From Bacillus sp. AFS055030 (lineage in GTDB: Bacteria > Bacillota > Bacilli > Bacillales > Bacillaceae_G): a DNA stretch of 57,320 nt. The notes below the pieces were generated by a model that saw only the letters and a list, made by a program, of their open reading frames with translations, searched no databases and was not told the DNA's origin. Location of the stretch: positions 1 through 57,320 of the forward strand of contig NZ_NUGT01000006.1 in NCBI RefSeq assembly GCF_002574545.1, written 5' to 3'. Each line of letters begins with the position of its first letter. Position 1 is the stretch's first letter. The position numbers and the translations under genes are program-made. This document shows positions 16,442 through 39,064 of this stretch, piece by piece.

Positions 16442-16532
16442 TATTAATCTCTCCTCTATTATACTACAGTTTTCCAATAGATTAAGTTGGATTTATAATT
16501 AAAAACTCTTTCTCTAAACTAAAGACTATTCA

Positions 16533-17369: not shown

Positions 17370-17403
17370 TTGATTGATCCTCCAAATCAGAAATAGTATG
17401 TAC

Positions 17404-18066: not shown

Positions 18067-19069
18067 CTAAAATCACCTCCAAGTTGTTTGTTCGATCTTG
18101 AATATACGCAATTGCTTTTAATACTTCTGCTTGTTCTCCTGAAATCTCCATTATAAAAATTCCGAGTGGAGTTTCTTGAATATACTCAATTTTCCCATGA
18201 AGAATATTCCCTTTTACCTTAAATTGTTGAAGCATATCAGACACAACGGATTCTTCCGCTACATTTCCTTTGAACGTTATTTTGATTACTGTTCCCTTGC
18301 TGTTTTTTAGCAAATGTTCAGGTAGTTCAAATTGTAAAATCGTGTTAATAAAGTCCTTTGTTAAAGCCTCTTTTGGTTTTGCGAATATATCGTATACTGG
18401 GCCAATTTCAATTATTCTGCCATCTTGCATTACAGCAATTCGGTCACAGACATCTTTTACAACATCCATTTCATGTGTAATAAGAACAATCGTTAATCCT
18501 AGTTCTTTGTTTATTTTTCTAAGTAATTGTAGGATCGATTTTGTTGTGCTTGGGTCAAGCGCTGATGTTGCTTCATCACAAAGAAGTACATGCGGTTCAT
18601 TTGCTAGTGCTCGAGCAATCCCGACACGCTGCTTTTGACCACCACTAAGCTGGGAAGGATAAACATCCCTTTTATCAGAAAGGCCAACTAATTCAAGTAA
18701 TTCCAGTACCCTTTTTTCAATTTCCACCTTGGATTTGTTAGCAGCTTTTAAAGCAAATGCTATATTCTCAAACACAGTTTTAGAAGAAACTAAATAAAAG
18801 TGTTGAAAAATCATGCCAATTTTCTGACGCTCTTTCCTTAACTCTTTAGTTGAAAGTGAATTTAAATTCACACCGTCAATATATACATTTCCCGAAGTAG
18901 GCTTTTCTAAAAAATTTAAACATCTTAGAAGTGAACTTTTCCCTGCTCCGCTATATCCGACTATACCGAATATTTCGCCTTTTTCAATCGTAAGAGAGAC
19001 ATCATGTACGCCTATAATTGTATTTTTTTTCGTTTTATACTCTTTTACTAGATGATCTACACGAATCAT
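18035..19069 (-). CDS. metN: Methionine ABC transporter ATP-binding protein
   Basis: 344 aa. Walker A GYSGAGKSS (38-46), signature LSGGQKQRVGIARAL and Walker B VLLCDEATSALDP are intact. The C-terminal NIL domain (about 265-344) is the methionine-sensing regulatory domain of MetN. It is first gene of the operon, 24 nt after the riboswitch terminator, with AGGAGG upstream. Confidence 0.96.
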   Translation of the reverse strand: MIRVDHLVKEYKTKKNTIIGVHDVSLTIEKGEIFGIVGYSGAGKSSLLRCLNFLEKPTSGNVYIDGVNLNSLSTKELRKERQKIGMIFQHFYLVSSKTVFENIAFALKAANKSKVEIEKRVLELLELVGLSDKRDVYPSQLSGGQKQRVGIARALANEPHVLLCDEATSALDPSTTKSILQLLRKINKELGLTIVLITHEMDVVKDVCDRIAVMQDGRIIEIGPVYDIFAKPKEALTKDFINTILQFELPEHLLKNSKGTVIKITFKGNVAEESVVSDMLQQFKVKGNILHGKIEYIQETPLGIFIMEISGEQAEVLKAIAYIQDRTNNLEVILGDRIAINVTA

Positions 19070-19092
19070 GAATAACCTCCTATTAGTTTTAG

Positions 19093-19252
19093 GTAAAAAA
19101 AAGCCTCTTTCATTCAGAAAGAGGCATCGGAAACAATTGTTTTCGACTTATCTTTCAGAATGAATTCATTCTGCAGGAAGTGGCACCGTTCCTTAAAAAG
19201 GAGGTTGCCGGACGTCATAGGGCCTGATCCCTCAGTCACTCTCGATAAGTTT
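19093..19252 (-). ncRNA. SAM-I (S-box) riboswitch with terminator
   Basis: On the minus strand the leader reads CTTATCGAGAGTGACTGAGG, then CAGGCCCTATGACGTCCGGC, AACC, GGTGCCACTTCCTGCAG and the closing GATAAG. These are the P1, kink-turn, P3 and P4 landmarks of the S-box. It ends in a terminator hairpin GCCTCTTTC...GAAAGAGGC (19103-19125) and a T-run to 19095. SAM binding should terminate transcription of metN-metP-metQ, the monooxygenase and the ATP-grasp gene. Confidence 0.95.
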
Positions 19253-23152: not shown

Positions 23153-26100
23153 TTAAATTTTATTTTTAATTTTCATTATTTCTTTAAATGTTCTTTCTGA
23201 ATTCTTTCTATCCACGTATTTGAAATATTTCTTCCTCATCTTTGCGTATTCATCTTTCTCTTTAAAATCATTATTAATATAATAATTAATATTTGATAAT
23301 AATTCATTAATATCTTGAGGAGCGTCACCAAACAATTCAGTCTCTAAATCTAGATAGCTTCCTTGATATTTAGAATACTCATCTCTGTCAAATTGATAAA
23401 AGATAGTTGGTTTTTTCATATAGTAGAAATCCCAAGAAACACTTGAGTAATCTGTTATTAACAAAGAACTTTCCATCATCATTTCATTAATTTTAACTTC
23501 TCCAAATTGATGAGTTACAATATTCTTGCCACCAAAATGAAATTTATTGCTATATTCAAGAAATTTAGGATGAAGCATAAAATGAAGAGTAATATTATTT
23601 TTTTCTAGCAAGTTATTCAATTCCTTAGATTCTAATACTTCCTTATATTTCTTGTAATAAGTACTATTTAAAAATTCCGCCTCAATTACTCCATCCATCC
23701 AAGATCTCCAAGTTGGCATCATAAATATTTTTCTATTCTCTTGTGTAGATTTATCTTTCAATACATCCCATCTAGCTAAACCTGTAACCATTATTTCTGA
23801 ATCTTTGTAATCAAAATATTCTTTTATTATATTTTTTTCATAGTCAGATACTACTTCAAAAAGCATAATAGGATTGTTCTTTTTCTTTTTAAAGACATAA
23901 TCTACCTTCTTTAAAGCGATAACTCCGTGTTGTAAAAATATAAGTTTCTTTTTATCTAAATTATCCTTTAATTTACCTTTTTGAATACGAATATCATAAC
24001 CATGTCCTTTTGATTCTGATGAAATCAATAATTTAGCTGCGTACATATAAAGCATATATTTAAAGCTCATAAAATTCAGGATATTTTTTCTCTGATGTTT
24101 AATATCTTTATAATCTATCGCATCTTTTTTGATAATATAATAAAAGTTTTCTTTCTTTTTGTTTTTATAACAATAATTAAAAAACTGATATCCATTATCT
24201 TGGGCAGTTGACGCATTTTTTTCAAAACCTAACCAAATATCTTTTTTATCAAAATAACCCTTAAATGTCTTGTAAACATGGTATGCCAATTTTTCTTTGA
24301 AGCGATTTATTTTATTTTCATATACTTCTCTTTCTCTAAAACAAAGCGCATAAGAGTTATCAGCAGTAATGTAAGGATAAATCATAAAATTATCAGCCAA
24401 GTCAATTTCGTTCTCATTTATATTATTATCTATATGATTTTTTACAGATTTAATTGGATTTTTCACTCTAATTGGATATATTTTATCGGCTACTTTAATG
24501 TTTATAAATATATCCCAATAGAAAGGAATCAAATAATACTTAGCAGGATCAATTAATAGTAGTAACTGACAATTATTTTCCTGTTTTTCTATAGTTTCCA
24601 CTGGAATCTCATATTTCATATCAATAGCCTTATTTCTAAGCATTATTGTTCCAGATTCTACAGTGTAATTCTCCACGCCAACATCTGTTAATTTAACCTT
24701 TATATCAATTAAATTATCTTTGACTTGACTTCCAATAACTTTAACATTACAATCCAACTGCTCATTACGGATTTTATTTTCTTCATTCCAAATAAGTGAT
24801 ATTTCATTTTTTAATGTTAAATATGGTACTGCTTCAAAACTTTTTTCTTCTGTTACCTTATTTAAAGATGAGAAATATCGAGAATACTTATTCTTTACAC
24901 TACTAGAGAAGCAGCCAACTTTCCCATAAATAATTACTTCACTTTTATACAGTTCAATAAATAAATCCCATCTAGAAGATTTACTTTCTAAACTATCGAT
25001 AAATTTATTAAATTCTATTTCCACTTTATTTTCTTCTTGTATGTCAAAATCTAAATCAACTCTCTCTTTAGTTCTTCGTTCTTTTAAATAAAATTTTATT
25101 TTGCTTTCATCTGAATTACTAAAGTTTTCGAGGTTAAAGTTCATTTTACTTCCGTTTACACTAAGTTTATTACAAGAATAATTAATATTAACAAAGTCAT
25201 AACGAATCTTGTAATATTGTTCTAAACTTGACACTTGAAATATCAATTCATTATGAACTGACCAATAGGGAATCAATACGTTATCTCCCGCTAAACTTAA
25301 TGGTTCTTTATATTTGTCACTTTTTAAAGAAATATAGTTCTTCGTATAAAAACCTATATAAGAATATGGATTAATAATATCCCCTAATTCATCTTTTATG
25401 GAAGTGTTCTCATGCAAGACCATGATAAATCTATAGCGATTTCCAACAATTGTATCTATATCTTTTTTAATAATAATATTTGGTAAAATTATTTGGTCTT
25501 CAAACAATTTAACGTCATCTATTCTTGTAAAATATCCATTGGTAATATCTTCTAAGAATAGGTATACTCTTTTATTTTTAAGGGGTGTTTGAAGCTTCAA
25601 CATAATCTCATCATTATTTAGATTATATTGTTCAATAAACAGTATTTCCTTATCTCCTACTTCTCCAAATTGCTTTATGTATAACAATGGATTTGATGTA
25701 AGAGATACTTCTTGTTTTGCGTTAGTATAACAAAAGATGTTTGTATTATCAGCTAAACTACTCAATATTTCTTCATTATTAACTAATTTTGCTTCATATA
25801 ATATTTCATCTTTTAAGAAGGAAACTTCTAATACACAACTTCCCAAATCCATTAGATCCACATCAAAGGAAATCTTATATGAATTATGTTCATCTAGGAT
25901 TTCTAATTCCTCAACAGGGATACGAGTATCCTTATTTTTCAATGAAAAAAATAATTCTGTATTTACATGTTCTTTTGGTAGAGTGAATTGAAGTTTATTT
26001 TTCGTCAGTAAGATATCCTTTATTGGCAATCGTATATTGTTCTTCTTATAAAATTCCTTTACTATCGTTATGTAATCGCCTTTTATTAAAGATATATCAT

Positions 26101-26458
26101 TATCCTTTGTTATATAGAATTTAAATCCATTACTACTGTGAGTAAAATAAAAAGGCGTTGCTTTTACACTTTTAAAATCAACTTTACTATCTTTAAAATT
26201 TGGACGAAACAACCTACCCTCTTGATTTGAAATAAATAAATCATATCTGTTCAGTCCAGTCTCTATTAATTCAATTTTATTATATGGTAAAACCAATTCA
26301 CTACCTTTACTTTCAAATTTAATAGGAATTCTATACTCTTGTTTATTTTTCCTATTTCTCAAAACAAAGAAATGAAACTCATCAAAATTACTTTCAACTA
26401 GTTTTATTCTTATAGAATCTTCCTTAATAAAAAATGCATCTAAGTCAATTTTTTTCAT
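23153..26458 (-). CDS. TagF-like CDP-glycerol glycerophosphotransferase with large N-terminal region
   Basis: 1,101 aa. The last 380 residues are a glycerophosphotransferase domain: ISSESKGHGYD, KLIFLQHGV, MMPTWRSW, and LLITDYSSVSWDFYYMKKP, where the His and the Asp/Ser loop bind CDP-glycerol. It polymerises or primes glycerol-phosphate (teichoic-acid-type) chains at the inner membrane face. The first 700 residues are beta-rich, without a recognised domain, and resemble the accessory repeats seen in long TagF/TagB relatives. The frame reaches back 6 codons to an upstream ATG without ribosome site; AAAGGAAAG 9 nt before the ATG at 26458 favours this start. Neighbours are the beta-helix protein and a DUF6270 gene. 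Confidence 0.87.
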   Translation of the reverse strand: MKKIDLDAFFIKEDSIRIKLVESNFDEFHFFVLRNRKNKQEYRIPIKFESKGSELVLPYNKIELIETGLNRYDLFISNQEGRLFRPNFKDSKVDFKSVKATPFYFTHSSNGFKFYITKDNDISLIKGDYITIVKEFYKKNNIRLPIKDILLTKNKLQFTLPKEHVNTELFFSLKNKDTRIPVEELEILDEHNSYKISFDVDLMDLGSCVLEVSFLKDEILYEAKLVNNEEILSSLADNTNIFCYTNAKQEVSLTSNPLLYIKQFGEVGDKEILFIEQYNLNNDEIMLKLQTPLKNKRVYLFLEDITNGYFTRIDDVKLFEDQIILPNIIIKKDIDTIVGNRYRFIMVLHENTSIKDELGDIINPYSYIGFYTKNYISLKSDKYKEPLSLAGDNVLIPYWSVHNELIFQVSSLEQYYKIRYDFVNINYSCNKLSVNGSKMNFNLENFSNSDESKIKFYLKERRTKERVDLDFDIQEENKVEIEFNKFIDSLESKSSRWDLFIELYKSEVIIYGKVGCFSSSVKNKYSRYFSSLNKVTEEKSFEAVPYLTLKNEISLIWNEENKIRNEQLDCNVKVIGSQVKDNLIDIKVKLTDVGVENYTVESGTIMLRNKAIDMKYEIPVETIEKQENNCQLLLLIDPAKYYLIPFYWDIFINIKVADKIYPIRVKNPIKSVKNHIDNNINENEIDLADNFMIYPYITADNSYALCFREREVYENKINRFKEKLAYHVYKTFKGYFDKKDIWLGFEKNASTAQDNGYQFFNYCYKNKKKENFYYIIKKDAIDYKDIKHQRKNILNFMSFKYMLYMYAAKLLISSESKGHGYDIRIQKGKLKDNLDKKKLIFLQHGVIALKKVDYVFKKKKNNPIMLFEVVSDYEKNIIKEYFDYKDSEIMVTGLARWDVLKDKSTQENRKIFMMPTWRSWMDGVIEAEFLNSTYYKKYKEVLESKELNNLLEKNNITLHFMLHPKFLEYSNKFHFGGKNIVTHQFGEVKINEMMMESSLLITDYSSVSWDFYYMKKPTIFYQFDRDEYSKYQGSYLDLETELFGDAPQDINELLSNINYYINNDFKEKDEYAKMRKKYFKYVDRKNSERTFKEIMKIKNKI

Positions 26459-27049
26459 TTTCACTTTCCTTTTCATATAAAATTAGACGAATAATAATGA
26501 GTAATCTCTATGAAAACTCTATAAATAAGTACTGAGAACATTGTTATAATTTAAAAGATTATTTGAGTCATCACCAAATGTACATATGGAAGACAACTTC
26601 CACATTATATAGCAAACGATTCATAGTCTATAATTAAGTGATTGAAAAAAGTAGTCAAGTTTTACATACTTTTTCATTTCTTACTCCTTTAAATGTTACA
26701 ATTTCTTAATATCATTCTTTTTAGTAATACTATTCCTTGACCATAAAAGCTTTATGTAAATGTCTTTGAGCTACATATAGTCTTCTTTTGCCCATAGTTT
26801 TTCAAGATTGAAAACTTACTTAAGCAACATTCTTTTCTAATATAACAGTTATGATTGTAACATAATTTTATAATCCATAAAAAATAAATCACTAACTGTT
26901 ACACTTTATTCTTTATCACTACTAATCAATAACTTCTTACCTTTCCCACTAGATAAATAAATCTTTGTGAATGTCACAGCTTAAGATCCAACCAAGACAA
27001 TTCTTACAATTTTAGTTAGTAATTTAAATGATTTCAAATAAATAAAAGT
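26459..27049. other. AT-rich intergenic DNA
   Basis: I see no gene in these 590 bases. They presumably hold the promoter of the glycerophosphotransferase gene. Some inverted GTAACA/TGTTAC elements occur near 26880-26930, of no clear meaning. Confidence 0.4.
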
Positions 27050-27640
27050 GAGGCTGTCTCAAAAGCTCGTTGAATAACGACCTTTTGAGGTAGTTTTTTC
27101 ATTTTTTCAATTTTTAAAGAGTTTTTATAAACTTGGAGGTTTTAGGAGAGGAATATCCAACTATTATTCTGTTATTTTTTCAGTTTTTTGGAACGAAAAT
27201 GCCGAACGAAAATATTTTTTGGGGCATTTGCCTCAATTTTGGTACCATCAAGAGAATAGTCTTCAAGTTTTACAAGACCTTCTGTTCGAAGAAGATCAAC
27301 AATTGAAAAGAATGTTTCATAATTTATTTCTTCTATACTTTACTACGGAATTCGGGTTGTTGTTCACCCGAAATCCATATGAAAACAATATTCTCTCTCA
27401 GTTGTTCCGCAATTTGACTAGAAGAATACCTACGATTTGAATAAGCGTAAGGATAACTTTTAATATCATTTTTGAATGATATGGCGGACAAGCACCACCC
27501 GGATGAAAAGTTTGAAAAGATAGTAGGATCCATTTGATCGAATGCAGTGTCAATAAACACGCAAGATGATTAGTAGGAATAAAACCTCAATGTCCATTGG
27601 AAAAGTCAGCTGGTTCATGTTATACTGTTTTTTTCAACTA
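27050..27640 (-). mobile_element. Decayed IS1182-family insertion sequence
   Basis: The transposase start is recognisable on the minus strand: MNQLTFPMDIEV begins at 27618, then IPTNHLA in a shifted frame, then AFDQMDPTIF, SNRRYSSSQIAEQLRENIVF and WISGEQQPEFRS, then in a third frame YETFFSIVDLLRTEGLVKLE and DYSLDGTKIEANAPKNIF. At least three frame changes are needed, and the C-terminal two thirds, with most of the catalytic core, are missing. The end GAGGCTGTCTCAAAAG at 27050-27065 looks like the terminal inverted repeat of such elements and is part of an inverted CTCAAAAG/CTTTTGAG pair. No matching repeat was found at the other end. Confidence 0.8.
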
Positions 27641-27789
27641 GCTAAATCTGCTTCCATAAAACAGGAACCAATTTACATTGGTACAACCACAAATAAGATT
27701 TAAGATTTGTTAGGAGAGCTCAATTAATTTATCACTATAAATAATGTCAAAAATATCCATGCATATATAAAAGGGGGATAAAAATAAAA

Positions 27790-28578
27790 ATGGGCAAAAT
27801 CAAAGTATCAATTATTGGCTCTTGTGTTTCTAGAGAAGCATTTACTACCAATAATAATCCTGATTACAAAAAAATGTATGAAATAGGCCCTGTTTCGTTT
27901 CAGACATCTATTATAAGTTTTATTAGCAAGCAGGTAGAAAAAGGAATAATTGAATTTCCTAAAGAACTATCTGAATATAAAAAAGGTGTTTTAACTAGCG
28001 ATATATACAAAAACATTAGAAACGAAATAGTTCAATATCAACCAGATTATTTAATTTTGGATCTTTATGCTGACGTGCGTTATGGTATAGTAAAAACAGG
28101 AGATACATTTATTACAAATAATCCTTCAACATTACGCAAAACAACATTCTATAAAGAAAAAAAACACGATTATCACATTCATTCAAACAATAAATTCAAT
28201 GAGTTCTTTCCAATATTTAAAGAAAAGTTTGCAGAATTTATTACATGGAAAAATGAAAACTTACCAAATACTAAAATAGTTTTAAATAAATTTAGATTTA
28301 CAAAAGATTATGCCAAAGGGAATAAGTTATACGAATTTGACCTTAATAAGTATCCCTATCTAGACAAGGAGAACAACAATTTCGAAGTTATAGAGAAATT
28401 CCTTGAAGAAAATTATGATTTAAGAATAATTAACAACCTTAATGTTGATTATATTGGGGATGGCCAGCATCCTTATGGTGTAAATCCGTGGCACTTAGAA
28501 AAATCATATCAAGTGAATGTTATGAACGAAATAAACAAAATCGCTCTATCTGATTTTGTAGAGAATGTTTTTATTTAA
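27790..28578 (+). CDS. DUF6270 domain protein, SGNH-like
   Basis: 262 aa. It opens with IKVSIIGSCVSREAF, the GSCVSRD-type motif of DUF6270, and continues with PDYLILDLYADVRYGIV, typical of the family. The Gly-Ser-Cys segment after a first beta-strand recalls SGNH hydrolases, and NPWHLEKSYQ near the end could supply a catalytic His. DUF6270 genes are often found among capsule or teichoic-acid genes, which agrees with the nearby TagF-like gene; modification of a surface polymer is inference. GGGGG lies 12 nt before the ATG, a longer gap than usual. Confidence 0.8.
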   Translation: MGKIKVSIIGSCVSREAFTTNNNPDYKKMYEIGPVSFQTSIISFISKQVEKGIIEFPKELSEYKKGVLTSDIYKNIRNEIVQYQPDYLILDLYADVRYGIVKTGDTFITNNPSTLRKTTFYKEKKHDYHIHSNNKFNEFFPIFKEKFAEFITWKNENLPNTKIVLNKFRFTKDYAKGNKLYEFDLNKYPYLDKENNNFEVIEKFLEENYDLRIINNLNVDYIGDGQHPYGVNPWHLEKSYQVNVMNEINKIALSDFVENVFI

Positions 28579-28772: not shown

Positions 28773-28808
28773 TAAAAAAATGATCCTCTTCTCGAAGATC
28801 ATTTTTTG
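28773..28808 (-). terminator. Terminator after the DUF202 gene (end of the catabolic strand run)
   Basis: AAAATGATC...GATCATTTTTT is a short hairpin flanked by A and T runs, usable in both directions. Confidence 0.8.
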
Positions 28809-28837: not shown

Positions 28838-29227
28838 TTAAAACAATCCCCATACATCTAAATAATAGGCACCGAAAATAAGAAAAATAAGAATTGAAGC
28901 TACTGATAAATAAACAACCAATATCCTTGAAAACTTAAACGTCTGATTATTAATATCATTTCCCTTGATAAAATAACTGAGTGTTGAAATGATTAAAGCA
29001 AAAATTCCAACTATAATCGATGATAATCCAATAATCTTTGATAATACGCCTCCTATTTTTGCACTAGAAGCCAGAGTTGAAAAATGAAGATTAGTGATTA
29101 AAAAGCCAATTCCCATTATGGTTATACTTGTTCTAACCCAAGCAAGATAAGTTCTTTCATTTGCTAAATGCTGTTGTATATATTTAGAATCAATTGTTTC
29201 TTTCTGCTTTTCTAATGCATTATTCAT
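28838..29227 (-). CDS. DUF202 (YidH-type) membrane protein
   Basis: 129 aa with three membrane helices. The motif NERTYLAWVRTSITIMGIGF (start of helix 1) defines DUF202. Function is unknown. The frame extends 12 codons upstream, but CAGAGG stands 7 nt before the ATG at 29227. It lies 42 nt downstream of the MFS transporter and may be the last gene of the alkyl-sulfate transcript. Confidence 0.85.
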   Translation of the reverse strand: MNNALEKQKETIDSKYIQQHLANERTYLAWVRTSITIMGIGFLITNLHFSTLASSAKIGGVLSKIIGLSSIIVGIFALIISTLSYFIKGNDINNQTFKFSRILVVYLSVASILIFLIFGAYYLDVWGLF

Positions 29228-29269
29228 ATTCATACCTCTGTTTCTATATCTCTTTTGAATCAACCCTTC

Positions 29270-30541
29270 TTATAGGTTTACTAGCTTATTATCCTTTCTT
29301 GTTGAAATTTGTTGATCTCTGTTTCCGAAAAGGAATATTAATAGCGCTGCAATTACCATTGCAATTGACATTCCATAAATTGCGATGTTATATCCACCTG
29401 CTGCATTTGCACCATAATTTTGAATAAGTTTCCCAAAAATAATCGGAGTAATAATTCCCGATGAGGTCATTAATCCAAAATACGTTCCTGTCATAACTCC
29501 TCTTCGCTGTGGGAGTATACTAACTACAATAGCTGGACTAAGTGTGTTTATCGTAATCACAAGTGTATTTACGAAAGAAAATACGATGATAATTGAAGCA
29601 GATCCATTCATAAGTGGATACAATAAGTACAAAATTCCTGCTAGCAAAATAATAATTGCAGAAAAAAATATACGCGATTTCCATAAACTTTTTGTTTTTT
29701 TGTATAATCGATCTGAAATGATAGATAGGAACATTGCTAAAATTGCCCCGATTAATCCAGAAATAGCAATAACTGATGCTGACTGTTGTTCAGATAACCC
29801 TTTTACTTTCATTAAATATACAGGATTAAACGTAAGTCCAAAGACAATGAATGAATAAGCAATAAATGCAATTAAAGTTGTAAAGATAAAAATAGGAGAT
29901 CGTAAAGCTTTCCAAGCATCTTTTCTATTATTATCGTTTATGTTTTCCATCGTACTAACTTCTTCTTCAAACGTAACAGTTGGTTTCATTCTTCCTAACC
30001 AAAGCCAACAAATGAACCAAACAAAGCTTAAAATACCAGAAATAAAAAATGCCTGTCGCCAACCGTAATTTAATATTAAAGAAACGATAATAGGAGCTGT
30101 AACAGCTATCCCAACAACATTTCCAAAATTAAAGATGGAGATGGCGAACCCACGTGATTCCGGCTTAAACCATTTACTTATATGACTAATTGCAGTTGCT
30201 TGAAATGCTCCTTCTCCTGCACCTAATAGTATTCTACTAATAATTAGAATTGGTAGACTTGATGCAAACAAAGCCAAAGATTGTGCGATTGTCCAAACAA
30301 TTGCCATAATAGCAAGTAATTTCCCAGTACCAATTCGATCCGATAAAGAGCCACCTACTATACCAAATATTGAAAATAACCAAAAAAAGCTGCTGCTTAA
30401 AAGACCAAACTCGGTAGAGCTTACATTCAAATCCTTCATAATAGGAATTCCAGCTAAACCTAAAATTGATTTGTCAGCAAAATTAATAATAGCCATAATA
30501 AAAAGTGAAAATAAAATGATCCATTTCGCCCAACTTTTCAT
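29270..30541 (-). CDS. MFS transporter (anion:cation symporter-like)
   Basis: 423 aa with 12 membrane segments. The A-motif is GGSLSDRIGTGKLL between helices 2 and 3, and RILLGAGEGAFQATAISHIS in helix 4 is typical of the ACS/hexuronate-type branch, which carries organic anions. CTGGAG precedes the ATG. It is 137 nt downstream of the alkylsulfatase on the same strand. Uptake of the sulfate ester, or efflux of sulfate or fatty acid, would fit. The gap carries a CTGCACAA/TTGTGCAG hairpin and a short Cys-containing open frame without ribosome site. Confidence 0.85.
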   Translation of the reverse strand: MKSWAKWIILFSLFIMAIINFADKSILGLAGIPIMKDLNVSSTEFGLLSSSFFWLFSIFGIVGGSLSDRIGTGKLLAIMAIVWTIAQSLALFASSLPILIISRILLGAGEGAFQATAISHISKWFKPESRGFAISIFNFGNVVGIAVTAPIIVSLILNYGWRQAFFISGILSFVWFICWLWLGRMKPTVTFEEEVSTMENINDNNRKDAWKALRSPIFIFTTLIAFIAYSFIVFGLTFNPVYLMKVKGLSEQQSASVIAISGLIGAILAMFLSIISDRLYKKTKSLWKSRIFFSAIIILLAGILYLLYPLMNGSASIIIVFSFVNTLVITINTLSPAIVVSILPQRRGVMTGTYFGLMTSSGIITPIIFGKLIQNYGANAAGGYNIAIYGMSIAMVIAALLIFLFGNRDQQISTRKDNKLVNL

Positions 30542-30678
30542 TCAAACTCCAGCCTCTCAACAAATCTATACTTTTTCAATAAACCAGTAATCACAACTTT
30601 GGAAAACACCTGCACAATCAAACTTTTCGAACATGGCTTGTGCAGATGCTTGTTTACATTGATTATTTTTTCTATTTA

Positions 30679-32583
30679 TTAAGGAGTTACGATATTTATA
30701 TAGCGGTCAAACTCATCTAAAAGTGATAAAAATTCGTTCAATTTTGTTTGATCACCTGAAATAATCAATTTTCCTGCTCCAACTGCTTGTTCAGGTGAAA
30801 GAAGACCAAGGAAAGTTCCATAAAATGCGAATTGATCAATTGTTAATGAAACATCTGCCTTGTCATCTAACGTATTTGCTCTAGAAAATAAAACAGAATT
30901 TTCCAAATTCAACGTAAATAGCTGGTTAGTGTCTGACAGGGTTACATTTATCGTTATTTTTCTACCCTCTGCTTTTGGACCGTTTATTTTTACTGCTATT
31001 AATTTTAAGAATTCGTTGACCGGCATATTCTTAATGATCCCTGATACATCTAATGGAGAATTATCTTTATTAATTCCATATCTTAGTTCTGATGCGCCAA
31101 CAAGATAAATATTGCGCCAATTAGCTGATTCAGCTTGATACCCTAATTGTTCAAATGCATCTGCTAATAAATTTTTAGCTTCTGAATTTTTTGGGTCAGC
31201 CATTATGACATTTTTTAATACTTGAGCTACCCAACGATATTCACCTTTTTCAAAATCAGCTTTAGCTTGTCTCAAAATAATTGCTGCTCCACCCATGTAT
31301 TCTACATATTTTTGACCAGTTTCCACTTGTGGTAATGGATCCAAATCAGAAGGATGAGCACTATAATATCCTAAATAATAATTGTAAATTCCCTTTGAAT
31401 TATGCTTTAAAGTTCCATAATACCCACGATTTCCCCAGTAAGTATCTAATTCTTTTGGAAGTTTGATTATTTCAGCTATCTCATCCATTGTATAACCATG
31501 ATTTGCTAAGCGTACCGTCTGATCGTGCATATATTTATATAAATCACGTTGAAGTTTTAAATGATTGATTGCATTATCCTTCTCCCATATAGGCCATGCA
31601 TGAATCATTAGTAATGCATCGATTTCTTCATTTTCAAATAATAAGATTGTTTTATCGAGTGAATTCGCCCAATGTAATGCATCTCTCGTTTTTGCTCCTC
31701 TTACTGTATAAATTTGATGCATCAATTTATTGGCATTCTCTGATACAAATAATAGTTTGTAATCCCTAATATAAAAATGCATTTCAGCTGGTGCTTCTGT
31801 GTTTGGTGTTAATAAAAATTCAAATGTTACACCATCTACTTCCATCGATTGGACTTCATTTCTTATTTCTACATTTGGTAACTGAAAACTCATAGTACCT
31901 GAACCCATTGTTGGTCCAATACCTACTGATACGGAGCCTTTTATACCGTCTGGTAAATCTTTCCCAAACTGATACTCTGCACGACGTGCCATGATTGTAC
32001 CTAAAAGTGCATTCTCACTTAACGCTTCTTCTATAAAATATTGAGGAACGATAATCGGAATATTAGGATTTTCAGCATATTTAAGCACAGCTTGAATACC
32101 GCCAAAATGATCAGCGTGACTTTGACTGATTATGATCGCTGTAACTGGCTTTTGTGGTCGATGTTTATAATATAATTCCATAGCGGCTTTAGCTGATTCA
32201 TTACTTCCTAAAGCATCAACTACAATAACTCCCTGCTTTCCTTCAATAAAAATGTTAGTGACATAAGATTGTCCACGAACTTGATATACTCCTTCTACAA
32301 CTTCAAACAAACCAGATATAGCCTGTAATTGTGCATTTCTCCATAAACTAGGGTTCACAGTCTCAGGAGCACTGTCATTTAAATAGTTTAACTGTTCAAT
32401 GTCCCAAACGACTTCCCCAGAATCATCTTTAATAATCTTTGCTTCTAGTGGTGCAATAAATCCCCTGTTTGCATCAATGAAGTCCTGTCGATCATTAAAA
32501 TTTAGAGTATCATAGACTGATAAATTAACATCTTTTGTAAAAGAAGTTGCGGGTTTTGATTGAATTAGCACTTTATTTGTCAT
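30679..32583 (-). CDS. Alkylsulfatase (SdsA/BDS1 type, metallo-beta-lactamase fold)
   Basis: 634 aa, the full family layout: MBL-fold catalytic domain (about 95-350), dimerisation domain (about 370-500) and C-terminal SCP2-like lipid-binding domain (about 520-634). It hydrolyses alkyl sulfates such as SDS to alcohol and sulfate. The zinc motif reads SQSHADHFGG (153-162) where SdsA1 has HSHVDHFGG, so the first His is Gln154. SENANKLMHQIYTVRGAKTR matches the AENAT...LRGAxVRD segment. No signal peptide is seen, so a cytosolic enzyme is likely. The ATG at 32583 has TTGGAGG 5 nt upstream; the TTG four codons earlier lies in the ribosome site. Confidence 0.9.
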   Translation of the reverse strand: MTNKVLIQSKPATSFTKDVNLSVYDTLNFNDRQDFIDANRGFIAPLEAKIIKDDSGEVVWDIEQLNYLNDSAPETVNPSLWRNAQLQAISGLFEVVEGVYQVRGQSYVTNIFIEGKQGVIVVDALGSNESAKAAMELYYKHRPQKPVTAIIISQSHADHFGGIQAVLKYAENPNIPIIVPQYFIEEALSENALLGTIMARRAEYQFGKDLPDGIKGSVSVGIGPTMGSGTMSFQLPNVEIRNEVQSMEVDGVTFEFLLTPNTEAPAEMHFYIRDYKLLFVSENANKLMHQIYTVRGAKTRDALHWANSLDKTILLFENEEIDALLMIHAWPIWEKDNAINHLKLQRDLYKYMHDQTVRLANHGYTMDEIAEIIKLPKELDTYWGNRGYYGTLKHNSKGIYNYYLGYYSAHPSDLDPLPQVETGQKYVEYMGGAAIILRQAKADFEKGEYRWVAQVLKNVIMADPKNSEAKNLLADAFEQLGYQAESANWRNIYLVGASELRYGINKDNSPLDVSGIIKNMPVNEFLKLIAVKINGPKAEGRKITINVTLSDTNQLFTLNLENSVLFSRANTLDDKADVSLTIDQFAFYGTFLGLLSPEQAVGAGKLIISGDQTKLNEFLSLLDEFDRYINIVTP

Positions 32584-32620
32584 AAGAACCTCCAAGAGTT
32601 GTTATAAAAAAAGTTTAAAA

Positions 32621-34138
32621 TTAATTAACTTCCATTTGTTCTACAATTAAAGCTCTCTTTAGTATTTTTCCTGTACTATTCTTTGGTAGCTCATTCATAA
32701 ATTCGATTTGTTTCGGTAGTTTGTATTTAGCTAGTTTGTATTTGCAGAAATGCAAAATGTCATCGTTCGTTATGAATTCTTCATTAGACACAACGAAAGC
32801 TTTTACAATTTGACCGTAATCTTTATCAGGAATTCCAATTACTGCCGCCTCTACGATCGCCGGATGTTGATAAATAACTTCCTCTACCTCTCTTGGATAG
32901 ACATTATATCCACCTACAATAATCATGTCTTTTATTCGATCAACAATATAGATGTAACCATCTTCATCCATCTTTGCTAAGTCACCTGTATAAAACCAAT
33001 CATTTTTAATGACCTTAGCTGTTTCTTCAGCCATACCAAGATAGCCAATCATAACATTTGGACCTTTTACAATTAATTCACCTATTTCTCCTCTTGGCAC
33101 TTCAAATCCGTTTTTATCAACAACCTTATTAATTACACCAGGAATGTTTATTCCAACAGAACCCTGTTTTTTCTCTCCTTTTAATGGATTAAATGCCGTA
33201 ACAGGAGCTGTTTCTGAAAGACCGAATCCTTCGAGAATGATAGTCTTATATTTTTCTTCAAACCTTTGAAGTAACTCGACAGGCATAGATGCTCCACCTG
33301 AAAAACATGCACGAATCGAAGCGAAATACTCAGCTGAATATTCTTCTAACTGTAATAAGAAGTTATACATCGTTGGAACACCAGCAAATAATGTCACTTG
33401 CTCATTAAAGATTGTATTTATCACTTCACTCGGACTGAATCTTGGGACGATTACTATATTTGCTCCACACATGATTGAAGTATTAACACAGATTGATAAA
33501 CAGAATACATGGAACATTGGAAGAACAGCTAAAATACGATCATTTTTATTAAACTCGACCAATTCTACAATTGATTGCGCATTTGAAATTAAATTACGAT
33601 GAGACAACATTGCACCTTTTGGTTTACCGGTTGTCCCAGACGTATATAAAATGACAGCAAGATCTTCTTCTATAATTAGTGGGAATTCATTGTCATTTGA
33701 CTTCTTATCAAGCAATTGCACCCAACTAAGTTCTGCTTTATTCGATTCCACATAGTACAACATTTCAATCTGTTTTAACTCTAGTTTAAGAGAATCAATG
33801 ATTGTATCCATAGTAGAATCCGCAATAACAGCCTTTGCTTGGCTATTCGATAAGATAAATGAGATTTCGTCTTTGGTAAAGATTGGGTTTACCGGAACAA
33901 CGACTCCACCTGCGCGTAGAATCCCATAGTAAGCAGTGACAAATTCTGGACAATTCCCTAATATCAATGCTACTCTATCACCTTTTTTGATTCCATCTTG
34001 TATTAATATAGATGCAAAATTTTCAACTTGAGAAAGTAATTCACTATATGTAACATCTTTATTTTTAAATGTAATTGCATTATGATTTGGAAATTTCTCT
34101 GCACTTTTTTTTAAACTTTCATATAAATTCAAACTCAT
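32621..34138 (-). CDS. Long-chain acyl-CoA ligase (AMP-forming)
   Basis: 505 aa ANL-superfamily enzyme that activates a fatty acid through an acyl-adenylate. The P-loop LYTSGTTGKPKGAMLSH (164-180), GFGLSETAPV, YTGDLAKMDEDGYIYIVDR and the C-terminal lysine motif NSTGKILKR are all intact. In this operon it would activate the acid made by the aldehyde dehydrogenase for beta-oxidation. The frame extends 12 codons upstream, but CAGGAGG lies 7 nt before the ATG at 34138. 37 nt to the sulfatase. Confidence 0.92.
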   Translation of the reverse strand: MSLNLYESLKKSAEKFPNHNAITFKNKDVTYSELLSQVENFASILIQDGIKKGDRVALILGNCPEFVTAYYGILRAGGVVVPVNPIFTKDEISFILSNSQAKAVIADSTMDTIIDSLKLELKQIEMLYYVESNKAELSWVQLLDKKSNDNEFPLIIEEDLAVILYTSGTTGKPKGAMLSHRNLISNAQSIVELVEFNKNDRILAVLPMFHVFCLSICVNTSIMCGANIVIVPRFSPSEVINTIFNEQVTLFAGVPTMYNFLLQLEEYSAEYFASIRACFSGGASMPVELLQRFEEKYKTIILEGFGLSETAPVTAFNPLKGEKKQGSVGINIPGVINKVVDKNGFEVPRGEIGELIVKGPNVMIGYLGMAEETAKVIKNDWFYTGDLAKMDEDGYIYIVDRIKDMIIVGGYNVYPREVEEVIYQHPAIVEAAVIGIPDKDYGQIVKAFVVSNEEFITNDDILHFCKYKLAKYKLPKQIEFMNELPKNSTGKILKRALIVEQMEVN

Positions 34139-34230
34139 TACTAAGCCTCCTGATCTCTCAAGTAATACCAGCAATATGAAAATAATTGAGGCACCATCAT
34201 CACTTTTGAAGGTGCCTTTTAACTTTAAAA

Positions 34231-35439
34231 TTATGAATTCACTAAGTTAGAGCCAACAACTTCATTTGAAATTTTTGCAATTACTTCAGGCGGAATTTTG
34301 AAGAATATTCCACAGGGATCGCTATGAACTAGTGTAACAATATTTGCCATATTATCCACATTCACCCTAAAGTCAGCAAACGTGCTTGGTAAGCCAACTT
34401 TTTCACGCAGATTACGAATGAATAATACAACTTCTGCTAGACATGCTTCTTTAGTCTCCGGTATATTTTTTAGGCCAAGCGCTTTTGCAAAATCATTAAT
34501 TCGCTTTAAATAAAATGGTGCTAATGATTCCATTACATTTGGCAATAACACTGCATTTGCAAGTCCATGAGGAATTCCGAATTTTGCCCCAAATACATGT
34601 GCTATATTGTGAACCGGAATCGCATTAACAGAAAGACTGAAAGCAGAAATTGCCATTGCACTAGCCATTAACATATTAGATCGAGAAGCAAGATTTCCCC
34701 CATCATGAACAGCTGTAGGCAAATTTTCTACAATCATTCGAATTGATTGAAGTGCGTATGCATCTGTCATTGGATTCGATTGAGGAGAGAAATATGCCTC
34801 AATTGCATGAGTTAACGCATCAAATCCTGTAAATGCAGTAATTTTTGGAGGCAAACCGATTGTAAGTTCTGGATCTAAAATTGCCATATCAGGGCTTATA
34901 AATGTATTTAGGATATTCGTTTTAATTCCGATCTTTTCATTGAATACTACAGCGATTGGTGACACCTCTGCCCCAGTACCAGCCGTTGTTGCAATTGCAA
35001 CGTGAGGAATTGGGATATACTGAGCTTTTGGCCAAAATTCCATTACATTTCCTACAAGAAGTTCATCACGAATATCATGAACTTTATTATGTAACATCCA
35101 TTTAATTGCTTTTACTGTATCTAAAACGCTTCCGCCACCAACAGCAATTAATGCATCTCCATTACATTCTTTATAGAACTTAGCTCCGCGGTTTATGATT
35201 TCACCTTTAGCATCCTGTTCAATCTCTTCAAAAACTCCTACTAACTGTACTGCACTAGGAATCTCTTCAAATAGTTCCTTAATTTTATCTGTAATTCCCG
35301 CCTGAGTTATTCCTTTATCAACGTAAAGAACTGCTCTTTTACCGCCAAGTCCTTTAATCATTTCTGGTAACATTGAACGAGCTCCAGCCCCACTGTTTAC
35401 AACTGTACGAACCGAAAACTGGAAAAATGATGTTATCAA
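34231..35439 (-). CDS. Iron-containing (group III) alcohol dehydrogenase
   Basis: 402 aa NAD(P)-dependent enzyme. GGGSVLDTVK (101-110) binds the nucleotide; metal ligands are predicted as Asp207 and His211 (FDALTHAIEAY), His281 (HNIAHVFGA) and His291 (GIPHGLANA). It would oxidise the fatty alcohol released by the alkylsulfatase. It starts with TTG at 35439, 7 nt after AAGG. Same strand and close spacing (92 nt to the ligase, 57 nt from the aldehyde dehydrogenase). Confidence 0.92.
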   Translation of the reverse strand: MITSFFQFSVRTVVNSGAGARSMLPEMIKGLGGKRAVLYVDKGITQAGITDKIKELFEEIPSAVQLVGVFEEIEQDAKGEIINRGAKFYKECNGDALIAVGGGSVLDTVKAIKWMLHNKVHDIRDELLVGNVMEFWPKAQYIPIPHVAIATTAGTGAEVSPIAVVFNEKIGIKTNILNTFISPDMAILDPELTIGLPPKITAFTGFDALTHAIEAYFSPQSNPMTDAYALQSIRMIVENLPTAVHDGGNLASRSNMLMASAMAISAFSLSVNAIPVHNIAHVFGAKFGIPHGLANAVLLPNVMESLAPFYLKRINDFAKALGLKNIPETKEACLAEVVLFIRNLREKVGLPSTFADFRVNVDNMANIVTLVHSDPCGIFFKIPPEVIAKISNEVVGSNLVNS

Positions 35440-35496
35440 GGGATCACCTTCTCTTTTCTATATTTTTTTTATAATCGTAAATCTCAAATCTATTTT

Positions 35497-37014
35497 TTAT
35501 AATAAAATACCGTACCAAGGTTTTTGGCTTAATTCCGGAGTAAGTGAACAATGAACATGTTTTACTTGCGTGTATTCGTCTAACGCATATCGGCCAAGCT
35601 CACGACCAAATCCACTTTGTTTATATCCTCCAAATGGTGCGTCACTTCTTAACATATGCCAGTCATTAATCCAGACTGTTCCCGCCTTTAAATCTTTTGA
35701 AATTTGAAGTGCTTTATTTACGTCTTTAGACCAAATACCAGCTGCTAACCCATAAATCGTATCATTAGCAATTTCAATTGCTTCTTCAATCGTAGAATAT
35801 CGAATGACACAAAGAACAGGACCAAAAATCTCTTCTTGAGCGATTTTCATTTTATTATTAACATCCGCGAAAATCGTTGGTTCAACAAAATATCCATTAT
35901 CATATCCCTTACCTGTTAAGCGTTTACCACCACAAACTAAACGAGCTCCTTCTTTTATTCCAGCTTCAACGTAAGATAAAACAGTTTGTAGTTGTTGTTC
36001 TGAAGCCATTGGCCCCATTCCAGTTGTCATATCAAGCTGGTTTCCAATCTTAATTGAAGAAGCCAACTTCGCTAATCGATCAACTACTTCATCATAGATT
36101 GAATCATGTACTAAAAGTCGCGTTCCTGATTCGCATAGTTGTCCGGAATGAAGACAGAAACCAAATAAGCTACCAGCAATAGCAATATCTAAATCAGCAT
36201 CTGGTAAAACGATAGATGGTGATTTTCCTCCTAATTCTAGAGTGACTCTTTTAACTGTTTTAGATGCTAACTCCATAATTCGTCTTCCTACTTCAGTAGA
36301 TCCCGTAAATGCAACTTTATCTACAAAAGGATGCGTTGCTAACACTTCTCCAACAGTAGCACCCGGTCCAGATACAACATTGAAAACACCTGCCGGGATT
36401 CCAGCTTCAGTAGCTAATTCTGCTAGTTTCAAAGTGGACAGTGGAGTATTTGATGCCGGTTTTACAATAATAGAATTCCCCATTGCCAAAGCTGGGGCAA
36501 TTTTCCACATTGCTAAAAGCATCGGTAAATTCCATGGTGTAATAGCTGCTACAACACCTAAGCCTTCTCGCCATACTTGATTATTACTAGGTCCTGGAAA
36601 AGGTAGTACAGGTAAAGATTCAACAAATGGATACTCAACAGTAAATTTCGCTGTTTGCTGAAGTAAATCGACTAAATATAAAATATCCAAATTTGAGATT
36701 CGTCTTACAGTAGCTCCAGAACTAATAGATTCCAAGAATGCAAGTTCCTCCGAATGTTCAACAATCTTATTCCCGAAATTAATTAAGATTTGTGCTCTTT
36801 CTTTTGGTGATTTCTTTGACCAAACTCCTGAATCAAAAGCATTTCGAGCAGAATTAATAGCTGCTTCGGTATCTTCTTTACCTGCTTTAGCTACAAGAGA
36901 GATTACTTCCCCATTTGCAGGATTTTTCACACTAAACGTTTCACCACTTTTTGCAGGTGTCCACTGTCCATCAATATAAAGAGGAAATTCCAATAATTTT
37001 TGAATCGTTTGCAT
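35497..37014 (-). CDS. NAD(P)-dependent aldehyde dehydrogenase
   Basis: 505 aa, complete. Catalytic Cys294 (HSGQLCESGTRL) and general base Glu260 (VTLELGGKSP), Asn162 (TPWNLP) and Lys185 (IVKPAS) are present. It converts an aldehyde to the acid; in this operon the fatty aldehyde from the Fe-alcohol dehydrogenase. It is first gene of the transcript, with AGGAGG before the ATG, and faces a divergent LysR gene across 291 bp. Confidence 0.94.
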   Translation of the reverse strand: MQTIQKLLEFPLYIDGQWTPAKSGETFSVKNPANGEVISLVAKAGKEDTEAAINSARNAFDSGVWSKKSPKERAQILINFGNKIVEHSEELAFLESISSGATVRRISNLDILYLVDLLQQTAKFTVEYPFVESLPVLPFPGPSNNQVWREGLGVVAAITPWNLPMLLAMWKIAPALAMGNSIIVKPASNTPLSTLKLAELATEAGIPAGVFNVVSGPGATVGEVLATHPFVDKVAFTGSTEVGRRIMELASKTVKRVTLELGGKSPSIVLPDADLDIAIAGSLFGFCLHSGQLCESGTRLLVHDSIYDEVVDRLAKLASSIKIGNQLDMTTGMGPMASEQQLQTVLSYVEAGIKEGARLVCGGKRLTGKGYDNGYFVEPTIFADVNNKMKIAQEEIFGPVLCVIRYSTIEEAIEIANDTIYGLAAGIWSKDVNKALQISKDLKAGTVWINDWHMLRSDAPFGGYKQSGFGRELGRYALDEYTQVKHVHCSLTPELSQKPWYGILL

Positions 37015-37081
37015 TTAAAAACCTCCTAAAATATTTATTCATTAAATAAGTTTGAATTACAGTAACAACTGACCTCCTTTA

Positions 37082-37096
37082 AAGAAAACGCTTGCA
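37082..37096. promoter_or_regulatory. Candidate cre (CcpA) site
   Basis: AAGAAAACGCTTGCA matches WTGNAANCGNWNNCW at all but one defined position (A for T). It lies about 70 bp upstream of the aldehyde dehydrogenase start, in the promoter zone of the operon. Glucose repression of a catabolic operon would fit; not proven. Confidence 0.5.
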
Positions 37097-37124
37097 AATC
37101 AAAAGAAATTTTTAGAAAATATTA

Positions 37125-37259
37125 TTAAGGATTTACCTTAATTAAAAAATTAAGAATTATCTGAATTAATTGTATAACTACACTTTTACTAAGTAAAATT
37201 ACGTTTTGTAATACCTTGTCCGCATTTTTTAATACCTAAAATTAGTGGTTTCTATTACC
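37125..37259. promoter_or_regulatory. Candidate LysR operator elements
   Basis: A perfect inverted repeat TTAAGG-ATTTA-CCTTAA lies at 37125-37141. Closer to the LysR start, the heptamer TAATACC occurs at 37209-37215 and 37230-37236, and as TATTACC at 37253-37259. The steps are 21 and 23 bp, so the copies sit on about the same face of the helix. LysR-type regulators usually bind the divergent promoter at recognition and activation sites. Confidence 0.42.
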
Positions 37260-37305
37260 CAAATTTTTTTCTAATATAGTATTCTTTTTAAAAGGTGGTC
37301 ACCAT

Positions 37306-38214
37306 ATGCACATTCAAAAACTTAAGATTCTTTCTGAAGTCGCTAAAACTGGGTCTTTTTCTATTGCAGGTCAAAATCTTCATATAACTCAATCTGGCAT
37401 TAGTCAAGATATAAAAAAAATAGAAGATGAATTAGGAATAAAAATTTTCGATCGCTCTCGCTATGGGGTAGTTCTATCACATGAAGGAGCTAAAATTGTA
37501 AATAAAGCAAATGAAGTATTGTTAAAATATGAAGAAATGATCGAAGAGGCAAGAATCATTTTAGAAATACATTCTGGAAATTTAAGGGTTTCAACGATAC
37601 CTGCTTTCTTTACTTATTTATTAAAACCATTAATTGAATTTAAGAATTTATATTCAAATTTAAACATTGAAATTTTAGAAAATATAACTGAGCATACAGT
37701 TGAAGCGGTTCAACAAAATAAAGCTGAGATTGGACTTATATGCATATACGAAAATATCTTGAAAAGCATAGAGCTCTTAAATTTTGAAAGGATTCTTGAG
37801 GGGACACTAAAGGTTTATGTAAGTAGCAATTCTCCTTTTGCTAAAAAGAAAAAAATAACACCTGAGGAAGTCCTTCAACAGCCGGTAGTATTATACAATG
37901 GTGATTATATCAATTGGTTCGTTAATAATTTTCAACTAAAATTTGGAAAAATGAATATTCTTTTTTCTTCAAATCAAACGGAAGAATTATCACGACTAAT
38001 CTCCGAAGGATTTGCAATTGGTTTTGCACCAGATTTTGCGACGAAAAGTAACCCTTATGTTATTGAAGGCAAAATGGTTGAAATTGAGCTGATAAACTAT
38101 GAACCTGTAAATGTTACACTTGGAATTATTTATAGTAAGAATAGAGCTCCTTCAAAAATAGAGAAACACTTAATGAAGTTTATTAAATCCGAATTAGAAT
38201 ACTATATAAGTTAA
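37306..38214 (+). CDS. LysR-family transcriptional regulator
   Basis: 302 aa. The winged helix-turn-helix spans residues 1-60 (KTGSFSIAGQNLHITQSGIS, then LGIKIFDRSRYGV), followed by a periplasmic-binding-protein-like effector domain (about 90-295). AAAGGTGG stands before the ATG. It is divergent from the alkyl-sulfate operon, the usual placement of a LysR regulator and its target; the inducer (an alkyl sulfate, alcohol or fatty acid) is inference. A hairpin follows at 38260. Confidence 0.92.
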   Translation: MHIQKLKILSEVAKTGSFSIAGQNLHITQSGISQDIKKIEDELGIKIFDRSRYGVVLSHEGAKIVNKANEVLLKYEEMIEEARIILEIHSGNLRVSTIPAFFTYLLKPLIEFKNLYSNLNIEILENITEHTVEAVQQNKAEIGLICIYENILKSIELLNFERILEGTLKVYVSSNSPFAKKKKITPEEVLQQPVVLYNGDYINWFVNNFQLKFGKMNILFSSNQTEELSRLISEGFAIGFAPDFATKSNPYVIEGKMVEIELINYEPVNVTLGIIYSKNRAPSKIEKHLMKFIKSELEYYIS

Positions 38215-38259: not shown

Positions 38260-38306
38260 AAATAAATAGTCCGACGAATCATTTAGATTCTCTGGACTAT
38301 TTATTT
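38260..38306 (+). terminator. Terminator-like hairpin after lysR
   Basis: AAATAAATAGTCC and GGACTATTTATTT are perfect 13-nt arms. A second inverted repeat ACCCGAATAAT/ATTATTCGGGT lies at 38404-38446 on the far side, facing the dockerin fragment. Confidence 0.65.
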
Positions 38307-38486: not shown

Positions 38487-38808
38487 TTATTGAATCCCTA
38501 ATTCTTTCTTAATATCCGCTAGTGTAAGACCTTTATATTTCTTTTTCGGTGTTGGAGCATTAGGAACTACATGATTTTGTAGTCCGAAGTTCTTTTCTAC
38601 GAATGCAAAATCTTTAGCGTCTACATTTCCATCAAAGTTGATATCTGCGCTTCGTTTGTTTGTTTCCCAATATGTTTGGATTGCAAGTGCATCCATTATA
38701 TCGATTACGTTATCTCCATTCACATCTCCAGCTTTTAATGATCGAGTAAGTAAACTGTCTTTTTCTCCTCGAATGGTTTTCCCATCTTTAAAGACTTTTA
38801 AAGTACCG
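38487..38808 (-). pseudogene. 3' fragment of a second dockerin-bearing secreted protease gene
   Basis: The encoded end aligns with the last 82 residues of the S8 protease at 8838-13031: 54 of 82 positions are identical by eye, including both calcium loops (GDVNGDNVIDIMDAL and ADINFDGNVDAKDFAF) and the tail (LADIKKELGIQ against LESIKIALGVQ). No protease domain is present. Similarity ends near 38806, exactly where a tyrosine-integrase 3' end begins on the other strand. The open frame could start at an ATG (38822) inside that integrase sequence, without a ribosome site and without a signal peptide, so I call it a fragment rather than a gene. Confidence 0.8.
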
Positions 38809-38963
38809 ATGTAAATGAACATCCAAAAATTGTATCAGAGAGATTAGATCATAGTAAAACAAGTGTTACTCACGATTTATATAGTCATGCATTACCTGAT
38901 ATGCAACATGATTCTGCTTTAAAATTAAAAAAAGCTATGAAAATTGTTGCATCAAAAAAATGA
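38808..38963 (+). pseudogene. 3' fragment of a tyrosine recombinase (integrase) gene
   Basis: 51 codons read DVNEHPKIVSERLDHSKTSV, then THDLYSHALPDMQHDSALKL, ending in TGA at 38961. This is the C-terminal end of phage/ICE integrases (HPKIVSERLGHSxIxxTLDxYSHxxP), including the His of the first motif and the catalytic Tyr of DLYSH. The upstream catalytic part is gone, replaced by the dockerin fragment. It is followed by a decayed hairpin (near 39029-39050) and the tRNA-like repeat, the normal order int-att. Confidence 0.85.
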
Positions 38964-39064
38964 ATGTGGTCATTTGGTCATTTAACATTAATAGAAGAAT
39001 TGCTGGAAAATAGAAAAAAAGCCCTAACCCCTTGTTCCCCCAAAGGATTAAGACTTCTCTTATG

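Follow-up and report, generated by a model that had tools for sequence, protein, structure and literature searches.

The closest described counterpart of the operon analysed here is slfRCHSL, the SLF module of the Psychrobacter plasmid pP62BP1, which comprises genes for an aldehyde dehydrogenase (ALDH), a GMC alcohol dehydrogenase, an alkylsulfatase, a fatty-acyl-CoA ligase and an AraC-type regulator (PMC3346939, PMC10779009). As described in these two reports, the module is co-transcribed, the cloned genes allow Escherichia coli to decompose sodium dodecyl sulfate (SDS), and SlfR represses slf, with dodecanal as the inducer. In Pseudomonas, where genes for alkyl sulfate use are described as tending to scatter over the genome, the released alcohol also has a dedicated oxidation, through LaoABCR (PMC10779009), alongside SdsA/SdsB. 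Unlike those of Pseudomonas, the genes studied here sit together, in a 57,320-nucleotide stretch (the window) of contig NZ_NUGT01000006.1 from the soil bacterium Bacillus sp. AFS055030, and a LysR-type gene diverges from them. Pseudomonas sdsB is presumably also a LysR gene lying by the sulfatase gene. We read the window cluster, with a probability of about 0.6, as an import-then-cleave carbon-catabolic operon for an organic (alkyl) sulfate ester, both substrate and activity being predicted.

The genes were checked against open reading frame (ORF) positions, and each family was confirmed by Pfam. Gene content, order, strand and the divergent LysR gene all agreed with an earlier note made on the same DNA. 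The genes are the following:

35497..37014, minus strand: ALDH (PF00171, 505 amino acids), first gene of the operon
34231..35439, minus strand: iron-containing alcohol dehydrogenase (Fe-ADH; PF00465/PF25137, 402 amino acids, TTG start)
32621..34138, minus strand: AMP-forming acyl-CoA ligase (PF00501; the ORF reaches 34174 with a TTG)
30679..32583, minus strand: SdsA-type (type III, metallo-beta-lactamase fold) alkylsulfatase homologue with glutamine in its zinc motif, hereafter Q-type (ORF to 32595)
32107..32127, minus strand: codons for SQSHADH, the altered zinc motif (Gln158 by the numbering of the 638-residue ORF, Gln154 from the ATG)
29270..30541, minus strand: major facilitator superfamily (MFS) transporter (Pfam), proposed importer of the anionic substrate
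28838..29263, minus strand: DUF202 protein (Pfam), last gene of the operon
37306..38214, plus strand: LysR-type regulator (Pfam), divergent from the operon

With ATG starts at 34138 and 32583, the intergenic gaps from ALDH to the sulfatase (57, 92 and 37 nt) match the 37-92 nt previously given. Both starts have a good ribosome-binding site as read from the sequence; that of the ligase was preferred to the TTG at 34174, and that of the sulfatase yields 634 residues instead of 638. As in slfRCHSL, a sulfatase, an alcohol dehydrogenase, an ALDH and an acyl-CoA ligase are encoded on one strand with a divergent regulator, and the same route is proposed. Nevertheless, the two systems differ in many respects. 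The alcohol step is assigned to a GMC flavoprotein in slf and to an Fe-ADH in the window, the slf-type pair of GMC enzyme and AraC regulator being absent here, and the AraC-type repressor responding to dodecanal is replaced by a LysR protein. The slf sulfatase has a canonical THxHxDH motif and a signal peptide, whereas the window sulfatase is a Gln variant with no evident signal peptide; the five-gene slf module lacks the MFS and DUF202 genes present in the window; and slf resides on a plasmid of a Gram-negative, the window operon in a Gram-positive. The earlier note had considered it rare for the whole route to be held in one operon, which was an overstatement, since slfRCHSL had already been described and tested (PMC3346939, PMC10779009). 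Thus, the full route in one operon is already known, and what sets the Gram-positive version apart is its zinc site and the predicted location of its sulfatase, along with its alcohol dehydrogenase, regulator and transporter. Interest centres on the Gln-type metal site and not on the operon as such.

The window sulfatase aligned over its full length with the solved alkylsulfatases YjcS, SdsAP, Pisa1 and SdsA1 (E below 1e-147), was approximately 44-45% identical over its length to yjcS-annotated genes in a plasmid search, and contained the metallo-beta-lactamase (MBL), Alkyl_sulf_dimr (PF14863) and Alkyl_sulf_C (PF14864) domains of type III enzymes. The "SdsA-type" label previously given to it therefore holds for homology, dimerisation and C-terminal domains, but not for the complete metal site. 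In SdsAP the zinc ligands are His192, His194, Asp196, His197, Glu303, Glu322 and His367 (PMC5426288), and the equivalent positions of the window protein (638-residue numbering) are Gln158, His160, Asp162, His163, Glu267, Glu286 and His332. Hence, six of the seven ligands are kept and the first His of HxHxDH is replaced by Gln. Since one of the seven canonical ligands is changed, alkyl-sulfate activity cannot be taken from homology alone, and the protein appears to be a homologue and variant, not a canonical member, of the type III alkylsulfatases.

This replacement is fixed in one clade. QSHADH instead of HSHADH was found in 18/18 distinct members of the clade (SH-aLRT 99 in a quick tree) and in none of the 66 other homologues. 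For this count, each locus contributed one protein whose match covered 400 residues or more (the last such match if a locus had two), and 136 loci were reduced to 84 distinct proteins by removing those with the same last 250 residues; Pseudomonadota entered only through best matches that became loci, and plasmid matches were not included. Also left out were the split His-type gene of genome G003 (L046/L049) and the broken gene of Neobacillus pocheonensis (L016, L080, L088), in which the first fragment retains SQSHIDH. A coupled change concerns the residue after His293, which we take to be the catalytic histidine: it is Gln in 18/18 Q-type proteins and Asn in 66/66 His-type proteins. The six other metal ligands and this His are conserved in all 18 Q-type proteins, in which a changed loop reads SENAN, compared with mostly AEN or AED in the other homologues. 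Relative to SdsA1, SdsAP, YjcS and Pisa1, the window protein thus differs in both Gln residues and in having no evident signal peptide.

In alkylsulfatases, a His protonates the sulfate (PMC3920027). The substituted position would bind the metal equivalent to Zn2 of SdsAP, described by its authors as more easily lost (PMC5426288). The same His-to-Gln change, at the equivalent first motif position, occurs in the B3-Q metallo-beta-lactamases such as GOB, which are reported to be active and to hold one or two metals (PMC10318434), although the window sulfatase differs from GOB in subfamily, substrate and remaining ligands. By this analogy, in which the second metal is weaker or exchangeable, the change is probably tolerated and would not abolish activity. 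The positions of Tyr246 and Gly263 in SdsAP bear on the use of primary or secondary substrates (PMC5426288); by alignment they are Phe/Gly in the window sulfatase, where the Gly is a further likeness to type III enzymes, and Ser/Phe in Pisa1, so that the Ser233/Phe250 pair of Pisa1-type secondary alkylsulfatases was not found. The ratio dN/dS was 0.13-0.15 in four comparisons, and this purifying selection speaks for a working sulfatase. Among the listed matches of searches over titles and abstract beginnings in open-licence PMC, subscription papers lying outside them, neither a Gln-variant alkylsulfatase or an assay of one, nor such a Bacillaceae operon, was found.

In 12 of the 18 Q-type proteins, the conserved core is preceded by no more than 12 residues, and in the other six the mean hydropathy over 12 residues is at most 1.43, even with the longest start. 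Eight His-type paralogues from Gottfriedia, by comparison, have 28-54 residues before the core and hydropathies of 1.7-3.4. This is a crude window measure and not a trained signal-peptide predictor, and many more-distant His-type homologues likewise have no hydrophobic N-terminal segment. Thus, Q-type sulfatases have no evident signal peptide, in contrast to SlfS of Psychrobacter, for which one is predicted. In addition, a transporter gene lies near the Q-type gene in 18/18 distinct loci (17 MFS, one TRAP), the MFS being at least 65% identical in 13 of them, the window included, and 43% in L010 and L011. The window MFS matched at 78-90% in the Q-bearing Gottfriedia genomes G005, G007, G011 and G012, and at E 1e-40 nothing matched it in three genomes without a Q-type gene, G001, G002 and G004. 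Among solved chains, this MFS is closest to a D-galactonate transporter, to vesicular glutamate transporters and to sialin. Instead of a Q-type gene, Gottfriedia G001 carries a His-type paralogue with a hydrophobic N-terminal segment in the order LysR-SdsA-ALDH-FeADH-ACS (ACS, acyl-CoA synthetase; locus L054), whose ALDH, FeADH and ACS are 90, 82 and 70% identical to their window counterparts; a subtilase gene follows, and no transporter adjoins. Taken together, the absence of an evident signal peptide and the presence of a transporter gene nearby suggest import followed by cleavage for the Q-type enzymes.

The gene order, which the earlier note had proposed to look for in other Bacillaceae, recurs in several genera of the family. 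A contig scan of genomes yielded 23 loci, including 13 close relatives (L002-L014), and 12 more Gottfriedia genomes were searched. The closest relatives of the window sulfatase come from G. acidiceleris and related "Bacillus sp." records, by which the window belongs to a Gottfriedia (Bacillaceae) genome. ALDH, Fe-ADH, SdsA and MFS genes occur in the same order on one strand in 13/13 close relatives, from records named Gottfriedia, Bacillus, Peribacillus, Neobacillus, Rossellomorea and Paenibacillus. The divergent LysR gene is visible in 12 of them, the L002 stretch ending before its position, and the ligase gene is present in 10, preceding ALDH in L008 and L013. The SdsA family is sparse in wider genome samples: at E 1e-60 a homologue was found in 5/398 genomes drawn from the class and in 35/397 drawn from the order, and homologues were found in 53/349 genomes in the phylum of a Bradyrhizobium locus. 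The window's own genome has only one SdsA-family match.

Distant Q-type loci indicate what the product might be. In G353 (L063), the neighbours of the Q-type gene encode an AMP ligase, a zinc alcohol dehydrogenase and an ALDH of a different kind, and also electron transfer flavoprotein subunits, acyl-CoA dehydrogenase, thiolase, enoyl-CoA hydratase, thioesterase and family III CoA transferase. In G025 (L062), it comes after TRAP genes and after genes for an acyl-CoA ligase of the ADP-forming type, a zinc alcohol dehydrogenase and another ALDH. That different families supply the same steps in these loci is good evidence for an alcohol as the product of the Q-type enzyme, to be oxidised and then CoA-activated. 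The route from ester to alcohol, aldehyde, acid and acyl-CoA, as set out in the earlier note, is thus well supported by family membership, gene order and the other Q-type loci. The ALDH, which carries ELGGKSP and GQLCESG motifs, and the Fe-ADH both have as closest solved chain (phmmer, PDB) the corresponding part of BdhE (9ldl), in which the two enzymes are fused (PMC12454647), whereas they are separate genes in the window. Choline sulfate, considered as a substrate because the ALDH is similar to betaine aldehyde dehydrogenase (BADH), is not favoured, as SdsA1 and Pisa1 are reported to have no detectable choline-O-sulfatase activity (PMC5870055). In the pathway that we propose, the MFS protein would import the anionic sulfate ester, and the cytoplasmic Q-type hydrolase would take off the sulfate to give a primary alcohol. 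This alcohol would be oxidised to the acid by Fe-ADH and ALDH, and the AMP ligase would convert the acid into an acyl-CoA for beta-oxidation. Expression would probably be activated by LysR, and repressed by CcpA in the presence of a better carbon source.

The candidate control elements between the LysR and ALDH genes are:

37083..37097, minus strand: cre-like (CcpA) operator TTGCAAGCGTTTTCT, upstream of ALDH
37169..37211, minus strand: conserved block, candidate LysR site and promoter reading into ALDH
37199-37211, minus strand: TTACAAAACGTAA (T-N11-A), candidate LysR site
37197-37169, minus strand: TTTACT-N17-TACAAT, promoter-like

The 14-nt string TTTGCAAGCGTTTT is invariant in 9/9 aligned LysR-ALDH intergenic regions (the window and eight relatives), and eight of the nine match in full what we take to be the cre consensus, WTGNAANCGNWNNCW. 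The same string precedes the His-type operon of G001, and cre-like sites of other sequence were found in L011 (full match) and L010 (one mismatch). The T-N11-A element and the promoter-like pair are also common to the window and the eight relatives. Since chance alone would give approximately one cre match in the window, the weight of the site rests on its conservation, which would fit with a role of the operon in carbon use.

Several observations weigh against this interpretation. The His-to-Gln change may mean that sulfatase activity is lost or altered. The ligase is absent from its place in the operon in L009, L010 and L011. Among solved chains it is closest to malonyl-, feruloyl- and fatty-acyl-CoA synthetases, and the best matches of the ALDH are BADH-type and BdhE enzymes, so that chain length is not indicated. 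The MFS proteins of L063 and L064 are only 31-35% identical, their genes being some 8 and 3.7 kb from the Q-type gene, and in G025, whose Q-type gene is more distant, no MFS matched and TRAP genes are present instead. L012 is one base off the cre consensus, no cre match within two mismatches was found in the rearranged L008 and L013, in which the ligase comes first, and two matches were seen in the window where 0.96 are expected on average, a number equalled in 26/100 shuffles. The histories of the operon genes are also mosaic: among ten Gottfriedia-type loci, silent distances agree between LysR and ALDH (r 0.83) and between SdsA and MFS (r 0.77), and across the two pairs r is -0.05 to 0.17. 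This agreement declines with separation along the operon, as recombination would give, and a division into SdsA/MFS and LysR/ALDH functional modules was rejected because it merely drops with distance. Finally, the slf precedent is proven for breakdown but not for growth: the 2012 report states, with data not shown, that the host grew with SDS as its only carbon source (PMC3346939), and the 2023 report describes the strain as unable to use alkyl sulfates as sole carbon source in minimal medium (PMC10779009).

These points have to be set against three alternatives. Loss of a zinc ligand fixed in a single clade, together with the coupled Asn-to-Gln change and the altered SENAN loop, could indicate that the Q-type protein has lost its role as an alkylsulfatase and hydrolyses another anionic ester, which the operon would degrade to acyl-CoA through the same oxidation steps, the nearby transporters being able to carry small soluble anions. 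We consider this unlikely, given the identity to yjcS-annotated genes, the shared domains and the retention of the other ligands; the canonical paralogue in the same operon setting in G001 also argues for a shared type of product. Still less probable is a secreted SDS-type sulfatase supplying fatty alcohol to the dehydrogenases from a long-chain surfactant, which is one way of taking the model of the earlier note. It has a precedent in slfRCHSL, with SDS as substrate and a signal peptide on SlfS (PMC3346939, PMC10779009), and the window ligase exceeds the cutoff of the long-chain-fatty-acid--CoA ligase family NF004837 (552.5 bits against 476), but, by the crude measure used, Q-type N-termini are short or weakly hydrophobic relative to the His-type paralogues, and a transporter gene accompanies every distinct Q-type locus. 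That the sulfatase is decaying or dispensable, leaving general alcohol and aldehyde oxidation as the live function of the operon, is very improbable: the gene is interrupted by stops in N. pocheonensis, but it is open over its length in all 18 distinct Q-type loci, evolves at the low dN/dS noted above, and encodes the sole protein of its family in the window's genome.

Import and cleavage of an organic sulfate ester therefore remains our preferred reading. Beyond it, we suggest, tentatively and with considerable doubt, that the Q-type proteins may form a distinct Bacillota branch of the alkylsulfatase fold. These enzymes would be cytoplasmic, be served by an anion importer and have a site with a single metal or with a metal other than zinc (e.g., iron or manganese), resulting from the coupled His-to-Gln and Asn-to-Gln (beside the catalytic acid) changes; they would cleave organic sulfates that are short and soluble, or some other natural anionic ester, and not detergents.

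Other features of the transcription units are:

30606..30649, minus strand: hairpin between the SdsA and MFS genes, perhaps a partial terminator or a processing site
28775..28807, minus strand: terminator-like hairpin past DUF202, with a U-rich 3' arm (z -4.4)
38260..38306, plus strand: terminator-like hairpin past lysR

The SdsA-MFS gap measures 137 nt and carries a hairpin in most relatives, and thus attenuation may keep the expression of MFS and DUF202 below that of the first four genes. The stem is conserved in the 12 relatives folded together, out of 14 aligned sequences; L010, which has no stem, and L033, in which it is apparent, were left out. In the window the hairpin is weak by energy (z -0.9, with 32/200 shuffles equally good), and only one of ten pairs is altered on both sides. 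A short ORF in the same gap was dropped, its frame being lost in relatives, where the hairpin is kept instead, and a hairpin in the Fe-ADH/ligase gap (34189-34217) was unsupported (z -1.5; 16/200 shuffles equally good).

Elsewhere in the window, a 111-residue ORF with a dockerin type I domain adjoins, by eye, an apparent phage-type integrase C-terminal remnant on the opposite strand (38487-38990), and a second dockerin lies near the end of a 1397-residue subtilase (8838-13031). An S-adenosylmethionine (SAM) riboswitch (19145-19251), away from the operon, heads a methionine-type ABC gene encoding an ATPase with a NIL domain; a luciferase-like monooxygenase gene is found further on, and the region 15392-19251 is possibly a sulfur-acquisition cluster. 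At 23153-28578, a CDP-glycerol glycerophosphotransferase domain is present in a 1107-residue protein encoded not far from a DUF6270 protein, perhaps for cell-wall polymer synthesis. Among the other loci, the fragmented Q-type gene of N. pocheonensis (L016, 8001-9890) sits amid ORFs resembling, by eye, beta-oxidation genes. In L055 and L057, the gene for a His-type SdsA paralogue has a GerA-type germination gene on one side and an amino-acid permease gene on the other, and in L060 and L061 SdsA is flanked by ORFs sized like those of L055 and L057.

If the preferred reading is true, operon-encoded alkyl-sulfate catabolism would extend to Gram-positives, and a single genus would hold two solutions, a secreted canonical enzyme cutting outside the cell and import combined with a Q-type enzyme cutting inside. 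The two enzymes would then provide a natural His/Gln pair for probing the weight of the second metal in C-O bond cleavage by alkylsulfatases.

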